This document shows, piece after piece, positions 3,000-34,582 of a DNA stretch of 64,000 nt. The translations under genes were made by a program, and so were the position numbers. Origin of the DNA: Melanopsichium pennsylvanicum. Taxonomy: Eukaryota; Basidiomycota; Ustilaginomycetes; Ustilaginales. A model generated the notes under the pieces. That model searched no databases. It had not been told where the DNA came from and was given only the letters and a program-made list of their open reading frames with translations. Position 1 is the first letter of the stretch. Each line of letters begins with the position of its first letter. The stretch lies in NCBI GenBank assembly GCA_900208305.1, contig OAPG01000006.1:900127-964126 (forward strand). The letters run 5' to 3'.

Positions 3000-4854
3000 G
3001 GAAGCGAAGTGAGGGTCTGCTGTCACAAATATGTGCAACATGCACGGTACAATATTCAGCAATCGCTGTTTTTCCCGACCTTTTGACGCCTTTGCTGAGC
3101 ATATCAGCTGGACCAAAAGAACTCAAGCGGCATATGAGAGGCTTCGCTTCGTAGTTCAGCGTCACGTTGTGCGTGTCAGCCGGAGCTCTGAGCATTCGTC
3201 TCGTTAATTAAGTGAATCAATTTATCCGACCAAAAGCACCTCAGATGCCACTCCCGATCGGCTGCCTCCTTTATGGAACTACAACAAAAGGGGGAGGCCT
3301 GCTTAGTTTTAGAATCATCACTTAGCTTTTCTTTAGCCATTGAGGTGTAAGAATCGAATGCAAGTGGCAATTATCGTTTCTGCCCAATCTGCGTTGCTTT
3401 GTGATGGGGGAATGGTGACACAAATTTGTACGAGACGAGATGAATTCATCTGGAATCCGTGCCTTATGCGCAAAGCCGCCTCAAACTGGAATCAACAGGC
3501 GTCCATCGCTTCAACAATTCGGGAAACCGATAAATTCCAACTGTACAGCTTACTACAAGACTCCAGGCTGATACGCAAGTGAAGCAGAATCACATCGCTG
3601 TCTTTTGATTTCCGCCCTCCCAAGTAGATCTCGCACCTGACGTGATAAGCGCACCCACCCAGCCCATGCCAGGTTGATCAGCTGATACAAGATAGCACTC
3701 CACATCCATGCCTATCTCTGACGCCAATCTGTCCCGTTCTTAGTCCAGTCAGATGCCGGGAACTGCGGCATTCCCCGCCGCCAGATGCTATCAAGTTCAC
3801 AATATCGTTGATAAGATACCACGAAGCTCCCTCGTACTGTACTGTGCTTATCTGGCCTGGATGCAAAGAGAAATCCATCTGGAGGCTGTGTGCCTCGTTG
3901 TTCGATATGGCGTCGAACTTATTGGCCTCGTCACTGAACGATTTGTCGTGAGGGCCATGGGACTATCACAGCACTCTGTTCGCACTTTGAGAGGTGATGA
4001 TGCAAAACGGATTGAGATTCGATTAGATGGCAGTGTAGGTAGGTAGTATTACAACATGTCGGAGTTGTACAGATGCGAGTGTTGCGGATGATGCAAGTTT
4101 GCGAACGAGAAGAAGTTATCAGAATGCAGTGTTGAAAGCGGGTAACTGATGCGAGGATATGTGTGTGAGTGAGAGAGAAGAGAAAATGCGAGAGAGTGAG
4201 ATGCGATGACAACGGCAAGATATCGAATTGAAGGGCAAGGCAAAAAAATGGGCAGAGATGGGAGGTCAAAGGAACTCCGAGAGGCCAACGTAGAAAGTTC
4301 AAGGAGTAAAAAGGCCATTCGCAACTGCCACAAACACTTACGACGCTAATTCAAGAGGACGTGTCCCAGGAGAAAGACGCCGTTCGTGTGATGTAGCAAG
4401 TGTTTGTAAAAAAAAGGTGGACGGTGGAGAAAGCAAGTGCAAAAGGGGATGGCATATTGAAGTCGTAACAGTAAAGGGGGAAAAGAAGGGGGAAAAGCCA
4501 AGGGTATGTAGAAGGATTGTGAACCGGAACGAAAAGAGCATCGCATGGGTATTGCAAGAACAGAGGTCCGACCCCCTCTGTTACTCCATCTCCCATCCCG
4601 GTTCAGGTATTCAAGACGTTCGCCTAGTGTTTGATTTGTTGAAGAGTTGAGCTTGATCACTCGCAAGATTGAGATGCTGAGCCTGACAAAGGCGCGAGTA
4701 AGGGGTCGTTTAAGGTGATGAAGGGTGGAAGTGGTTTGGGGCCAAGCACAGCAGAGACGGCCAACCATCGACTTAAGAAACTAGCGACGGAACGAGAAAC
4801 GGAGACGAAAACGAGAAACGAGATCTAGAGTCGAATGACTCAAGTGCCAGTACA
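3000..4854. other. Intergenic region between convergent genes
   Basis: Lies between the 3' ends of the alcohol dehydrogenase and the cystathionine beta-synthase. Short open frames on both strands lack family features; those at 4340-4770 lie in the probable 3' UTR of the synthase. I see no RNA gene or repeat. Confidence 0.5.
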
Positions 4855-29608: not shown

Positions 29609-29944
29609 AGTTGAAGATATTGCGCCGACCGAATTAGATGGGCAGATGAATTAAGGCATGAGGCGAATAAAGCTGAATGCGGACAAAGCGAAGAAACTGA
29701 AGGCGATGATGAATGTCAGGGGTTCGAGCCCCCTATTGGGAGCCATGAATGTCAGGGGTTCGAGCCCCTGACATTAATAAGAGGGAAATATTGTAATACG
29801 TGTATAGCGAACGATACTTGACAAGATTACCCTGTCTTTGCCGAATTTTGGGGGCCGCGACGAAGGTATATAAACCCGAAGATTCAGCATGTAAATAGTC
29901 AGAAAAATTAAGCAAATAAGAACCAAGAATAACAACCTTCAACT
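29609..29944 (+). repeat. 5' LTR of the copia element
   Basis: AGTTGAAG...CTTCAACT, 336 bp. Contains two T-arm/B-box-like sequences (29712-29775) in U3 and a TATA box TATATAAA at 29867-29874, which places the transcript start near 29895 and leaves a short R-U5. Confidence 0.96.
29712..29775 (+). other. tRNA-Lys 3'-end-like sequence and second T-arm copy in U3
   Basis: 29718-29734 forms a T-arm (AGGGG, loop TTCGAGC, CCCCT), followed by ATTGGGA as the 3' acceptor strand, discriminator G29742 and CCA at 29743-29745. The T-arm region is very close to that of yeast-type tRNA-Lys. A second copy (29748-29775) is a perfect 11-bp hairpin, AATGTCAGGGG pairing with CCCCTGACATT. Both contain GGTTCGAGCC, which fits the Pol III B-box. 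The same sequences recur in the 3' LTR at 34350-34413. Confidence 0.75.
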
Positions 29945-29958
29945 GATTAAGAGTCTGA
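29945..29958 (+). other. Primer-binding site, complementary to tRNA-Lys(CUU) anticodon arm
   Basis: GATTAAGAGTCTGA follows the 5' LTR directly. Its complement TCAGACTCTTAATC reads as a 5-bp stem strand, the seven-base loop CTCTTAA with anticodon CTT, and the first bases of the 3' stem. It does not start with TGG, so it does not match a tRNA 3' end. This is the half-tRNA arrangement known from Drosophila copia (there initiator Met). Confidence 0.65.
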
Positions 29959-30019
29959 ATGCTCAGAACGACGAGCTAACAAGAACAAGAAACAAGAACA
30001 AGAAACAAGAACCAAGAAA

Positions 30020-30994
30020 ATGTCCAGCGTCGAACCACAGACTATGCCAGTCGAGGCTCAAGGCATAGCTAAGAAAACTCGAGCAAGAAGAAACAAGAAC
30101 ACCGCCCCCACTCATAACGACGATGAAGAAGAACTCGAAGACGAGTGTGACTTCCAGCCGATCCGAAACCTCGACCCAATCATCATGCAGAAACATTTCA
30201 GCAGCCTGGGCGAACTTACGAGCAAGAACTGGGGATTTTGGAATTCAGATTTTGAACGACTAATGTTATCCCTCGAGGGAGTCGCCGAATATATTACAGG
30301 CGAGAAAAATCCCAACAGCGAAGGTTGGAATAAACATTTGGATAACATGATGTGTTCAATCATCATTAGCAAGATGAAAACCGGAGGCGAGGATGGACTC
30401 GACTCGCTCAAGAGCAAAATCATCGGATTAAAAGTTGCTCATGTTGGAAAGCTCTGGAAGCTGATCAGAGAAGATCTCACGGTCGACAACGAAGAAAGGA
30501 TTAAATTGATCCTGGATCAAATAGTATGTGCGAGGGTCCTTCACAACGATGTGAGGAAGTACATCAAGTACATCGAGGACCTTTCCAACGAGGCAACCTT
30601 AATTGGATATCCGTTCATCGACCACACTCTTACGCATTACGTGCGCCAGCAACTGTACGGAAACCCAATTTACCAGGTAACCTTAGATATGCATCCGACT
30701 TCCTCGTTCAAAGCTCTTTGCACGGCTTTAGAATCCAAGCAGATCCAGCACGAGACACTCGGACCTGGTACATTTGTTAGAAGAAACCCAATCCATTATC
30801 AAGCTCGGGCAGCAAATGTAAGTGGTCCCAAGGAGGCCAATACTCCCTACTATTGGCAAGGACGGCGCGATCCCAGTAAGCCTAATGAGAGGCCGAAATG
30901 TTATAGCTGTGGACAAGTTGGGCACATTGCTAGGCAGTGCTCATACCAGCAACAAAACAACCAGCCGGCCCCGGACGCCAAAACGAGCCAGTAG
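30020..30994 (+). CDS. copia Gag
   Basis: 324 residues from ATG 30020 to TAG 30992-30994. The N-terminus is Lys/Arg-rich, then a UBN2-like capsid region (LGELTSKNWGFWNSDFERLM; MMCSIIISKMKTGG) and a single CCHC zinc knuckle near the end (CYSCGQVGHIARQC). Gag assembles the virus-like particle. Pol continues in the same frame directly after the stop. Confidence 0.92.
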   Translation: MSSVEPQTMPVEAQGIAKKTRARRNKNTAPTHNDDEEELEDECDFQPIRNLDPIIMQKHFSSLGELTSKNWGFWNSDFERLMLSLEGVAEYITGEKNPNSEGWNKHLDNMMCSIIISKMKTGGEDGLDSLKSKIIGLKVAHVGKLWKLIREDLTVDNEERIKLILDQIVCARVLHNDVRKYIKYIEDLSNEATLIGYPFIDHTLTHYVRQQLYGNPIYQVTLDMHPTSSFKALCTALESKQIQHETLGPGTFVRRNPIHYQARAANVSGPKEANTPYYWQGRRDPSKPNERPKCYSCGQVGHIARQCSYQQQNNQPAPDAKTSQ

Positions 30995-33900
30995 GAATTT
31001 TGGTGCACCCTCACGAGCTCGCACAAAGAAATTAACCCAGATACTTGGGTTGTGGACTCTGGTGCGAGCATGCATATGGTAAATGATTTCTCATTGCTCG
31101 TTGACCCAAAACCTTTTTCAGGCCAAGTTCACACGGCCGGAGAAGGATCATTGGAGATCAAAGCAATTGGAGATATATTCGCTCATGTAGGCATTATGCA
31201 AGTTCACCTGCGTAATGTATTATATGTTCCAAAAGCGAATATAAAATTATTATCTGTTATTGCCTTGATGAAAGAGAGTGGTGCACGAGTGATTTTTGAA
31301 AATTCAGGAGGAAAGATTTATTTCCCAGATGGTGTGATTATTGGAGTAAAAGAAAATGTTGAGAGAAATTGGTTGGAAATTCGTACCAACCAGCGTGAGA
31401 ATTATGGGCTACATCAGACAGAAGAATTATTCGAATGCCTACCAGAAAAAATGCAAATTCGCGAACCGAGCAGAAAAGTATCCAAGGAACACCTATGGCA
31501 CGAAAGGCTCGGCCACCCAGGCCGAGATAAAGCTAGAGCAATCATCAAGAGATTTAGTGAATCAAGCGAAGTCAAATTGGACCCTGAAGATTCATTGGAT
31601 TGTCACGAGTGCATCGCTGCCAAAAGCACACAGGCAAGAATGGGAAAGGGCAGTGGAGAAAGGGACAGCGAAGTACTCGGATTAATTCACGTCGATTTAA
31701 TTACAGATTTATCAGGGACATCTGAATATCGGAACATCCTTGTAGCTGTTGATGACCATAGCGGGTACATATTGGCTACGCCAATTTTCAAGAAAAGCGA
31801 TGCACTCGGGTGCCTACAAAATTGGACGAAATTCATGGAAAATCAAACAGGCAACAAGGTCAAAAGAATCAGGTCAGATAATGGTGGAGAATGGGCCAGC
31901 ACTCTAGCAGATCAATGGAGCGCGAATGAAGGAATTCTTTGGGAAAAGACCTCGCCATACACCAGTACTCAGAATGGGCGTGTAGAGAGGATGAATCGCA
32001 CACTCATGGAGAGAGTGCGAGCGCTGCTTAGCCAACGAGAATTACCAGCAAACCTGTGGCCATTTGCAGTCCAAGCAGCGGCTTTCACCATTAACCTCAC
32101 TCCAGACCAACATGGACTCACACCGTACGAAAAGGCATTTAAACGGAAACCGGATCGATTTGTCCAACTACTCAGGGTATTTGGTTGTCTTGCATGGGTA
32201 TTTATTCCTAAAGGAAGGCGGGAACACGGCAAAATCGACGCTCGAGCTGTTGCGGCGGTACTGCTTGGATACAGTCTGACAAGGAAAAGTTGGCTATTTT
32301 ACAGTCCAAACTACAAACCGGATTTATTCTGGAGTAATTCGGCTAAATTCCTCGAACAACAAAGTTGGCAAGATAGAACAGAGTTCCTCCCATTAAAAAT
32401 CTATCCGCCAAAAGCACCGGTTGACAATGCAGAAATTCCAGATCTAGGATACGAGGATCAAGACGCGAATTACGAAGATTACGAGGATGCCCTAAAACAC
32501 CTAGTGGATGATGATTTCCCAGAAAACCAAGGAGAAATTCAGGAGGAGATTCCATCTGAAGAGCTTCAGCGCGAGGAAATCCCTAATTCGTCAACAGGAG
32601 CCAAAATCGATGAAAGCGAGAATAAAGCAAGAAAATCATCAAATGATAGGCGAAAATACGCTCTCATCGGTAATCCCAAAGTAGAGACGCTAGATTTGAT
32701 GCCCACGGTCAAAGAGGCGATGGCACGCGAAGATGCACAAAAGTGGAGAGAAGCGATAATGAAAGAAGTCGAGGGATTAGAAAAGAAAGGGACATGGGAA
32801 ATTGTTGACAGACCATTAAACGTAAGGCTGGTTGATTCCAAATTAGTACTCAAGATCAAGACGGATGCAAATATGAAACCAACAAAATACAAGGCAAGAC
32901 TGGTAGCACGAGGATTCACACAACAGCAAGGAATTGACTATGACGAAATATTTGCGCCGGTTGCACCTATGGAAGCAATACGAGCTGTGCTCGCGATAGC
33001 GGCGTTCAATGATTGGGAAATTGATTGCATTGATGTGGTTCAAGCATACTTGAACTCAGAATTGCATCACGAGGTGTACCTCAAGCCCCCGCAGATTACA
33101 CAAGTACCGGAAGGTAAGGTTTACAAATTAAAGAAAGGACTTTATGGGCTCAAGCAATCTGGGCGAGAATGGAATAAAATATTGGATCAACATTTGAAAG
33201 ACATAGGTTTTAAGGGACTACCTTGTGCGCCGTGCATCTACCTCAAAGGACAAGGCGATAAAATGGTAATTATCACCACCTATGTTGACGATATGCTGAT
33301 AATTTCTCCAGACAAACGAGAAGTAAACAAAGTAAAAGACGACATAAGGCGAAAATGGGAAATTGAGGACAATGGACCCGTAACCGAATTTTTGGGTATA
33401 AAAATTACCAGAGACAGATACAAGAAAATCCTCGATCTAGATCTAGCAGCATACATCAAGAAAATGATCAGTAAGTGGCTACCAAACGGCGAGAAATCAT
33501 GGCGACCAATGATATGCCCACTGGACGCAGAAGAAACAGAAGAAATAATTGGGGAAAAAATCGAAGAATTATCAGGAATTGGTTGGTCAACTATTATGGG
33601 TATCAAATACAGTGCGACCAGACATAAGCTTCGCCGGTGGGTCATTGGCGAGGTACATGTCGAAACCGAGGGAAGGAGCTTGGGAAGCAGCTATTCAGGT
33701 ATTAAAGTATTTAAATCAGACAGCCGAAAACACTTTGCGATACGAAAATAAAGAGGAAAATAAGCATCCAATAACAACGTACACAGATGCGAATTGGGCT
33801 TCAGAGAGGGCGACGAACAGAAGGAGTACCTCAGGATCCACGACGTTCATTTTCGGGAATTTGGTCAGTTGGAAATCGCAGGTACAGAAATGTGTGTCGC

Positions 33901-34292
33901 TATCGGCGGTGGAAGCAGAATTCGTGGCAGCATCAGACGCGGCGAGGGAGGCATTATTTTTCAAATATTTGCTGCGAGATTTGGGGGTTTCCGAAGAAAA
34001 ACCGTTAATGTTGACCGATAGCATGGGATGCGTCCAAGTCAGCAAAGACGCGGCGAAACATTGGAAACTCAAACACATTGATACTCGGTACCATTTCATT
34101 AGGGATAATGTGCAATCCGGATCGCTGGAAATCAAGCATATCAGGACCGAAGAAAATTTGGCGGACATGTTGACCAAACCAGTACCAAAGGCAATCATTA
34201 TGCGAACGTGTAACGGGATAAATATGGTACGGCCGGCGAGGGGGGGAGTTGAAGATATTGCGCCGACCGAATTAGATGGGCAGATGAATTAA
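30995..34292 (+). CDS. copia Pol (protease, integrase, reverse transcriptase, RNase H), frameshifted
   Basis: Open in the Gag frame directly after the UAG. Protease active site VDSGAS at 31052; integrase zinc finger (HERLGHPGRDKA...CHEC) and DDE core (DLITDL, RSDNGGEW, then NGRVERMNRTL) at about 31490-32020; reverse transcriptase from about 32700 (KARLVARGFTQQQGIDYDE; YVDDMLIIS at about 33280). The frame then runs to a stop at 33751, but RNase H coding (VGQLLWVSNTVRPDISFAGG onward, YTDANWAS, SLSAVEAEF) is in the next frame, from about 33560 to TAA at 34292. The switch lies at GGGGAAAAAA, 33551-33560. Nearly all catalytic residues are present, so only the UAG and this indel separate it from an intact element. 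Confidence 0.92.
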
Positions 34293-34582
34293 GGCATGAG
34301 GCGAATAAAGCTGAATGCGGACAAAGCGAAGAAACTGAAGGCGATGATGAATGTCAGGGGTTCGAGCCCCCTATTGGGAGCCATGAATGTCAGGGGTTCG
34401 AGCCCCTGACATTAATAAGAGGGAAATATTGTAATACGTGTATAGCGAACGATACTTGACAAGATTACCCTGTCTTTGCCGAATTTTGGGGGCCGCGACG
34501 AAGGTATATAAACCCGAAGATTCAGCATGTAAATAGTCAGAAAAATTAAGCAAATAAGAACCAAGAATAACAACCTTCAACT
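34247..34582 (+). repeat. 3' LTR of the copia element
   Basis: Same 336 bases as the 5' LTR, shifted by 4638. The pol frame ends inside it at 34292. It lies 431 bases upstream of the MLRQ start codon and its TATA box (34505-34512) points toward that gene. Confidence 0.96.

Follow-up and report, generated by a model that had tools for sequence, protein, structure and literature searches.

A CCA-bearing 3' half of tRNA-Lys(UUU) in the LTRs of a young Ty1/copia element of Melanopsichium pennsylvanicum, with a proposed origin from a cut primer tRNA

How does the 3' end of a mature tRNA, with its CCA, come to stand in the promoter region of a retrotransposon? The question is raised by a locus in the window, i.e., the whole analysed stretch of 64,000 nucleotides of M. 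pennsylvanicum DNA (C6:900127-964126).

The copia element in the window and the source of its insert

The retrotransposon in the window is a young Ty1/copia element with a primer-binding site (PBS) of the half-tRNA type. It spans positions 29609-34582, and all of its features named here lie on the forward strand. Two identical LTRs of 336 bp (AGTTGAAG...CTTCAACT; 29609..29944 and 34247..34582) are bordered on the outside by the TSD AATTC. The gag reading frame (30020..30994) encodes 324 aa with a zinc knuckle; its one close relative was an M. pennsylvanicum protein, with 68 % identity across 68 % of the query. In the pol region (31052..34292) the integrase lies upstream of RVT_2: a Pfam search placed rve at residues 209-304 and RVT_2 at residues 581-809 of one pol frame, which is the Ty1/copia order. 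The LTR pairs also agree with Ty1/copia, 5-bp TSDs matching in 8/8 unbroken pairs of the family. Directly after the 5' LTR follows the PBS (GATTAAGAGTCTGA, 29945..29958). The LTR ends, fixed by the 5-bp TSDs, read AG...CT and not the usual TG...CA (29609, 29944). The pol of this copy looks frame-broken, presenting two overlapping frames (31052-33751 and 33549-34292), and the second piece had no match in a Pfam search at E 0.001. Two scans of IMG/VR for relatives gave no hit in one case and 11 pattern matches, none of them confirmed, in the other.

The insert of the 5' LTR (29707..29775) consists of TGA, nt 41-76 of tRNA-Lys(UUU), nt 41-63 of the same tRNA, both in sense orientation, and TGACATT, an arrangement referred to below as state C. 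A TATA-like box (TATATAAA, 29867..29874) is located about 90 bp downstream, thus the insert lies in U3. The earlier note had read a T-arm, an acceptor strand, a discriminator G and CCA at this place. All of them are present: the T-arm AGGGG TTCGAGC CCCCT at 29718-29734, the acceptor 3' strand ATTGGGA at 29735-29741, the G at 29742 and the CCA at 29743-29745; the exact match begins two bases earlier than described, at 29710, and comprises 36 nt (29710..29745). The partial second copy occupies 29746..29768, and TGACATT (29769-29775) completes an inverted repeat with AATGTCA. In the 3' LTR, where pol ends short of the insert, the same 36-nt sequence is found at 34348..34383. Immediately before the insert, U3 (29609-29706) is variable and repeat-rich and differs between subfamilies, as seen against two related LTRs (L022, L023).

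Comparison with the host tRNA-Lys genes confirmed the piece in U3 as the 3' portion of a mature tRNA-Lys with its CCA. The tRNA-Lys(UUU) has the matching acceptor strand and T-arm, and its nt 41-76 are identical to the insert in 36/36 positions. Only the acceptor 5' strand that had been predicted, TCCCAAT, differs from the host sequence TCCCGAT, which forms one G-U pair. The 3' halves of the UUU and CUU isoacceptors differ at 5/36 positions and the insert has the UUU sequence; with five mismatches, tRNA-Lys(CUU) was rejected as its source. One gene for tRNA-Lys(UUU) was found (C5:136903-137006, minus strand, intron after A37) and five genes for tRNA-Lys(CUU). The single UUU gene rests on tRNA searches plus the pattern TCCCGATTAGCTCAGT, found once in the genome. 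The whole-tRNA DNA query was not exhaustive, the five CUU genes being absent from its matches, and the Rfam tRNA search scored 63 of 1080 candidates, with none of the six tRNA-Lys gene positions in its table. ARAGORN reported no tRNA in the window or in L021, although L021 holds the intron-bearing gene; intron-bearing tRNA genes are therefore missed by ARAGORN here.

The CCA is not encoded by the tRNA-Lys(UUU) gene, as the earlier note had supposed: the discriminator is followed by TCT. A DNA copy of the gene was rejected on this ground and because the empty site in related LTRs contains no TGG (see below), and the case for an origin from mature tRNA is strong. A search for box B and CCA at tRNA spacing gave 38 matches genome-wide (5 in the reversed control), which were the 33 LTR matches described below, a further sequence present in four copies and an isolated match. 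A tRNA-like gene with CCA directly 3' in the DNA was noted at L080, C2:1617528, C3:733331 and C5:248747, of which L080 was read. It looks as if an encoded CCA occurs beside another tRNA in this host, not at tRNA-Lys(UUU).

Distribution and forms of the insert in the genome

The whole 21.1-Mb assembly was searched. TATTGGGAGCCA had 33 matches and its reversed control none; 33/33 lie in 20 LTRs of this copia family (L001-L020), with two matches in 13 LTRs and one in seven. For GGGGTTCGAGCCCC, 38 matches were obtained (control 0), 37 of them in the same LTRs; the remaining match is the host tRNA-Lys(UUU) gene. As both reversed controls were 0, a chance match was rejected. An assembly artefact was rejected as well, since every one of the eight unbroken LTR pairs has its own flanks and matching TSDs; two solo LTRs have matching 5-bp TSDs, too. 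Outside the insert, the 20 LTRs represent only three distinct sequences with two variable positions of 266. With copies so nearly identical, all captures may be one event.

The inserts exist in three forms. State A (13 LTRs) reads GGCGA, antisense nt 76-41, antisense nt 76-43 and AATAAG, with AACAAG in one LTR pair and two substitutions in the first copy of the C12 pair. Its members are five LTR pairs and a solo LTR, all with matching TSDs, and a copy whose two parts lie on C1 and C5. State B is a solo LTR with a single antisense copy (nt 76-43). State C, the inverted version in sense orientation, comprises six LTRs of three elements (window, C4 and C17). The tandem, antisense insert, present in 13/20 insert-bearing LTRs, had been overlooked in the earlier note. 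TGG opens each of the two antisense copies of state A, and the first copy is longer by two bases (CA, nt 42-41). Two TGG starts and unequal lengths are expected of two separate copies, not of a simple duplication.

The split state A copy has its 5' part in L091 (C1:1991300-1997300) and its 3' part in L092 (C5:496600-502600). The break lies at element position 4237/4238, and CAAAC stands on both outer flanks; either a translocation took place within the element or the assembly is wrong here. Another state A element is apparently nested in an LTR of a second copia family (L104, C12:60050-60500; TSD GTTAA).

Seven relatives are free of the insert (L022-L028). Four of these (L024, L025, L026 and L028) could be read across the site, where GGCGA (GGCAA in L026) stands beside ATAAA or ACAAA, and no TGG is present; the site is rearranged in L022 and L023, and L027 is truncated. 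The empty site without TGG indicates that the tRNA sequence arrived by insertion and brought the TGG, i.e., the CCA, along. The comparison of related LTRs suggested in the earlier note thus found the motif in 20 LTRs and an empty site in four older ones.

A clean inversion of state A would not give state C. Both have the tandem junction and the right end in common, but state C has one acceptor strand, not two, and an inverted duplication, an irregularity that counts against the course proposed below. Our best guess is a derivation by strand switch at the T-arm, which is nearly self-complementary. State B could have lost a repeat that state A has, or it could represent a stage before it. A comparison of internal sequences (about 1.5 kb from each end, nine copies; the 3' piece of the split copy was excluded, as it runs into unrelated sequence) gave no clean tree, hence the order from A to C rests on the junctions and the numbers. 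State C shares some sites with state A, as recombination would give.

Priming and the origin of the insert

The PBS lies flush with the LTR end and is complementary to the anticodon region of a host tRNA, as in half-tRNA-primed copia elements: 14/14 positions pair with nt 27-40 of tRNA-Lys(CUU). The paired stretch spans the splice junction, which implies that the tRNA was spliced, and as LTR and PBS adjoin without a gap, the primer would end at C40. tRNA-Lys(UUU) pairs with the PBS as well, save for one G-U at wobble base 34; the duplex has -32.7 kcal/mol with CUU and -30.1 kcal/mol with UUU, and the better fit of CUU counts against the course proposed below. The earlier assumption of the same tRNA species in PBS and insert did not hold at the level of isoacceptors, the PBS fitting CUU and the insert being UUU. 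Its suggestion of a captured second half fared better, for the boundary of the clearest copy coincides with the presumed cut at C40/T41. This copy, the first of state A, extends from A76 to T41, which is exactly what a cut between nt 40 and nt 41 would leave of the tRNA, and the TGG of the following copy adjoins it directly. For the second antisense copy two readings are possible: an end at nt 43 plus one additional A, or an end at nt 41 with a base lost. A clean T41 boundary is thus present in only one of two copies, which weakens the case for a cut half. As it pairs with the PBS but for the one G-U, tRNA-Lys(UUU) could be subject to the same cut.

We propose, with somewhat more confidence than doubt, that two 3' halves of mature tRNA-Lys(UUU), left from a primer-type cut, were reverse-transcribed into U3 end to end; the cut half as template, the strand copied and the route of inversion are what we infer. 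The element would prime with a 5' half of tRNA-Lys ending at C40. tRNA-Lys(UUU) would be cut at the same place, C40/T41, so that its 3' half (nt 41-76) would remain in the particle. The antisense orientation of the copies on the plus strand suggests a jump to the CCA end during plus-strand synthesis: the reverse transcriptase would meet a template break at GGCGA, jump to the CCA end of the 3' half, copy it to T41, jump to a second 3' half and then return to the element at ATAAG. Transposition would then multiply the antisense tandem, and a rearrangement by strand switch at the nearly self-complementary T-arm would yield the inverted form of the window. A58 of the T-loop, usually methylated in mature tRNA, was faithfully copied in each copy, an observation that counts against this proposal.

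Another reading, possible though doubtful, is that a whole mature tRNA-Lys(UUU) was copied and no cut half existed, the stop at T41 being a coincidence of pausing or microhomology. It accounts equally for the mature origin and the CCA, and it agrees with a second copy that, on the simplest reading, ends at nt 43 and not at 41, and with an insert isoacceptor that is not the best match to the PBS. Against it, the junction copy stops exactly at T41, beside C40 as the presumed end of the primer, and the passage to the following CCA end resembles a run-off from the template. We know of no hard-stop modification at nt 40-41 of tRNA-Lys, which likewise counts against copying of the whole molecule. 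Unlikely is an entry of cDNA of tRNA ends by end-joining into a chromosomal double-strand break in one LTR, from which the changed LTR spread later. Such a repair would be consistent with the intact flanks of the site (GGCGA/ATAAG), and orientation would be free, but both LTRs must have taken up the change afterwards, and the tandem of two tRNA ends as well as the match with the primer boundary are left unexplained.

The insertion of a tRNA gene or a tRNA-type SINE into the LTR, as proposed for Helenus, has a precedent in fungal LTRs with tRNA-like sequence, as far as the accessible text reports (PMC10886601). For the present insert we regard it as most improbable: it contains the CCA that the gene lacks, it is limited to nt 41-76 without the box A part (with the whole tRNA as query, LTR matches extend at most over nt 41-73), and the element has its own gag and pol. 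That the antisense copy is the ordinary PBS of another LTR element, gained by recombination, would suit its start with TGGCTCCCAATAGGGGG and can be dismissed, for the match is 34-36 nt long, where about 18 would be expected, and no copy exists elsewhere in the assembly (33/33 TATTGGGAGCCA matches in these LTRs).

The proposed capture of cut 3' halves has to be seen beside half-tRNA-primed elements elsewhere. copia and Ty5 prime from internally cut tRNA, according to the available part of the source (PMC5371799). Their gene order is that of Ty1/copia, and a PBS against the anticodon region of a host tRNA adjoins the LTR, as here. In the descriptions at hand they use initiator tRNA-Met as primer, whereas the window element would use a tRNA-Lys with a presumed cut in the anticodon stem; the loop cut of Ty5 counts against our model in this respect. 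LTR copies of a tRNA 3' half, as present here, were not found described for copia or Ty5 in the same partial sources.

Known systems, possible function and meaning

Fungal elements offer one likeness. In the accessible text of Kojima (2024, PMC10886601), Helenus and fungal Copia elements share with the window element a tRNA-derived sequence in the LTR, a PBS against the anticodon region and a 5-bp TSD, and the tRNA piece in the fungal LTR and the anticodon-loop PBS are reported as not complementary. Helenus, a TRIM, is described there as non-autonomous and is explained by SINE insertion; its Pol III promoter consists of boxes A and B. The element of the window, in contrast, has gag and pol, and its LTR insert comprises only nt 41-76 with CCA, mostly in antisense. 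Membership in Helenus (TRIMp3) was rejected, as the box A region is absent and gag and pol are present. Chimeras of LINE-1 and tRNA halves resemble the present case in that the halves are mostly antisense and were copied by the reverse transcriptase of a retroelement, as stated in the available part of PMC13174262. They differ in their non-LTR nature and as one-off insertions, whereas the insert here is located in the LTR and inherited by new copies. Chiefly nt 1-37 are reported for these chimeras (PMC13174262); the piece captured here is the opposite, 3' half, which counts against our proposal. Cassandra, too, carries a small-RNA sequence in its LTR, in this case 5S rRNA. The partial descriptions at hand present it as non-autonomous with the 5S promoter kept, whereas the tRNA half in the window lacks a full internal promoter. 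A CCA-bearing tRNA half in an LTR was not recognised in any earlier report of the open-licence literature, represented mainly by titles and the beginnings of abstracts.

The captured half may have become part of replication, as a bipartite PBS of the Ty3 type newly made from the leftover primer half; this is very unlikely. The RNA of the state A U3 would be fully complementary to the 3' half of tRNA-Lys(UUU), with -79.5 kcal/mol (-64.8 kcal/mol for CUU), and state C still reaches -48.2 kcal/mol because the T-arm is nearly self-complementary. A state A genomic RNA could pair with nt 27-40 of tRNA-Lys in the PBS and with nt 41-76 in U3, holding both halves of the cut primer. The bipartite PBS of Ty3 is similar to state A, its U3 being complementary to part of the tRNA with the T-arm included, in the excerpts available. 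According to these excerpts, priming in Ty3 starts at the native 3' end of the tRNA, and initiation involves the pairing with U3. Here, however, the U3 stretch fits UUU best, and state C has the sense orientation. Three elements with the opposite orientation in both LTRs, together with the older relatives free of the insert, indicate that the insert cannot be essential. It is taken as a passenger, and any function is putative.

A second, related copia family in the same genome has the same type of PBS (anticodon of tRNA-Lys(CUU)), and a segment of its LTR resembles the 5' end of tRNA-Lys(CUU). In L093, 22/23 nt counted from nt 1 of the tRNA agree at LTR position 145, and 0/2000 dinucleotide shuffles were as good. 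The agreement is 20/23 in L099-L102 (1/2000 shuffles as good for L101) and 19/23 in L094. The segment stands in sense orientation just upstream of a TATA-like stretch, and a partial tandem duplicate occurs in some copies (L093, L094, L099-L113). A 5'-end pattern search of the genome yielded 34 matches (control 2), six of them the tRNA-Lys genes; 18 of the 28 others were inspected. Among twelve further stretches, chosen because they matched, 11 had a best score of at least 17, while L114 scored 12 and looks unrelated. Subfamilies of this second family read TAGCTCAGTYGTTAGATC, close to the general box A of tRNAs, thus the source tRNA is less sure than in the first family. These similarities hint that tRNA capture by such elements may recur.

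For half-tRNA-primed elements, little is known about primer acquisition, the site at which the tRNA is cut and the fate of the other half. That a genomic copy of a 3' half ends where the PBS boundary lies suggests a leftover half that stays with the reverse transcriptase; the cut site indicated by it, C40/T41, is directly testable. The case also illustrates how host tRNA sequence can pass from RNA into the promoter region of an LTR and be spread from there.
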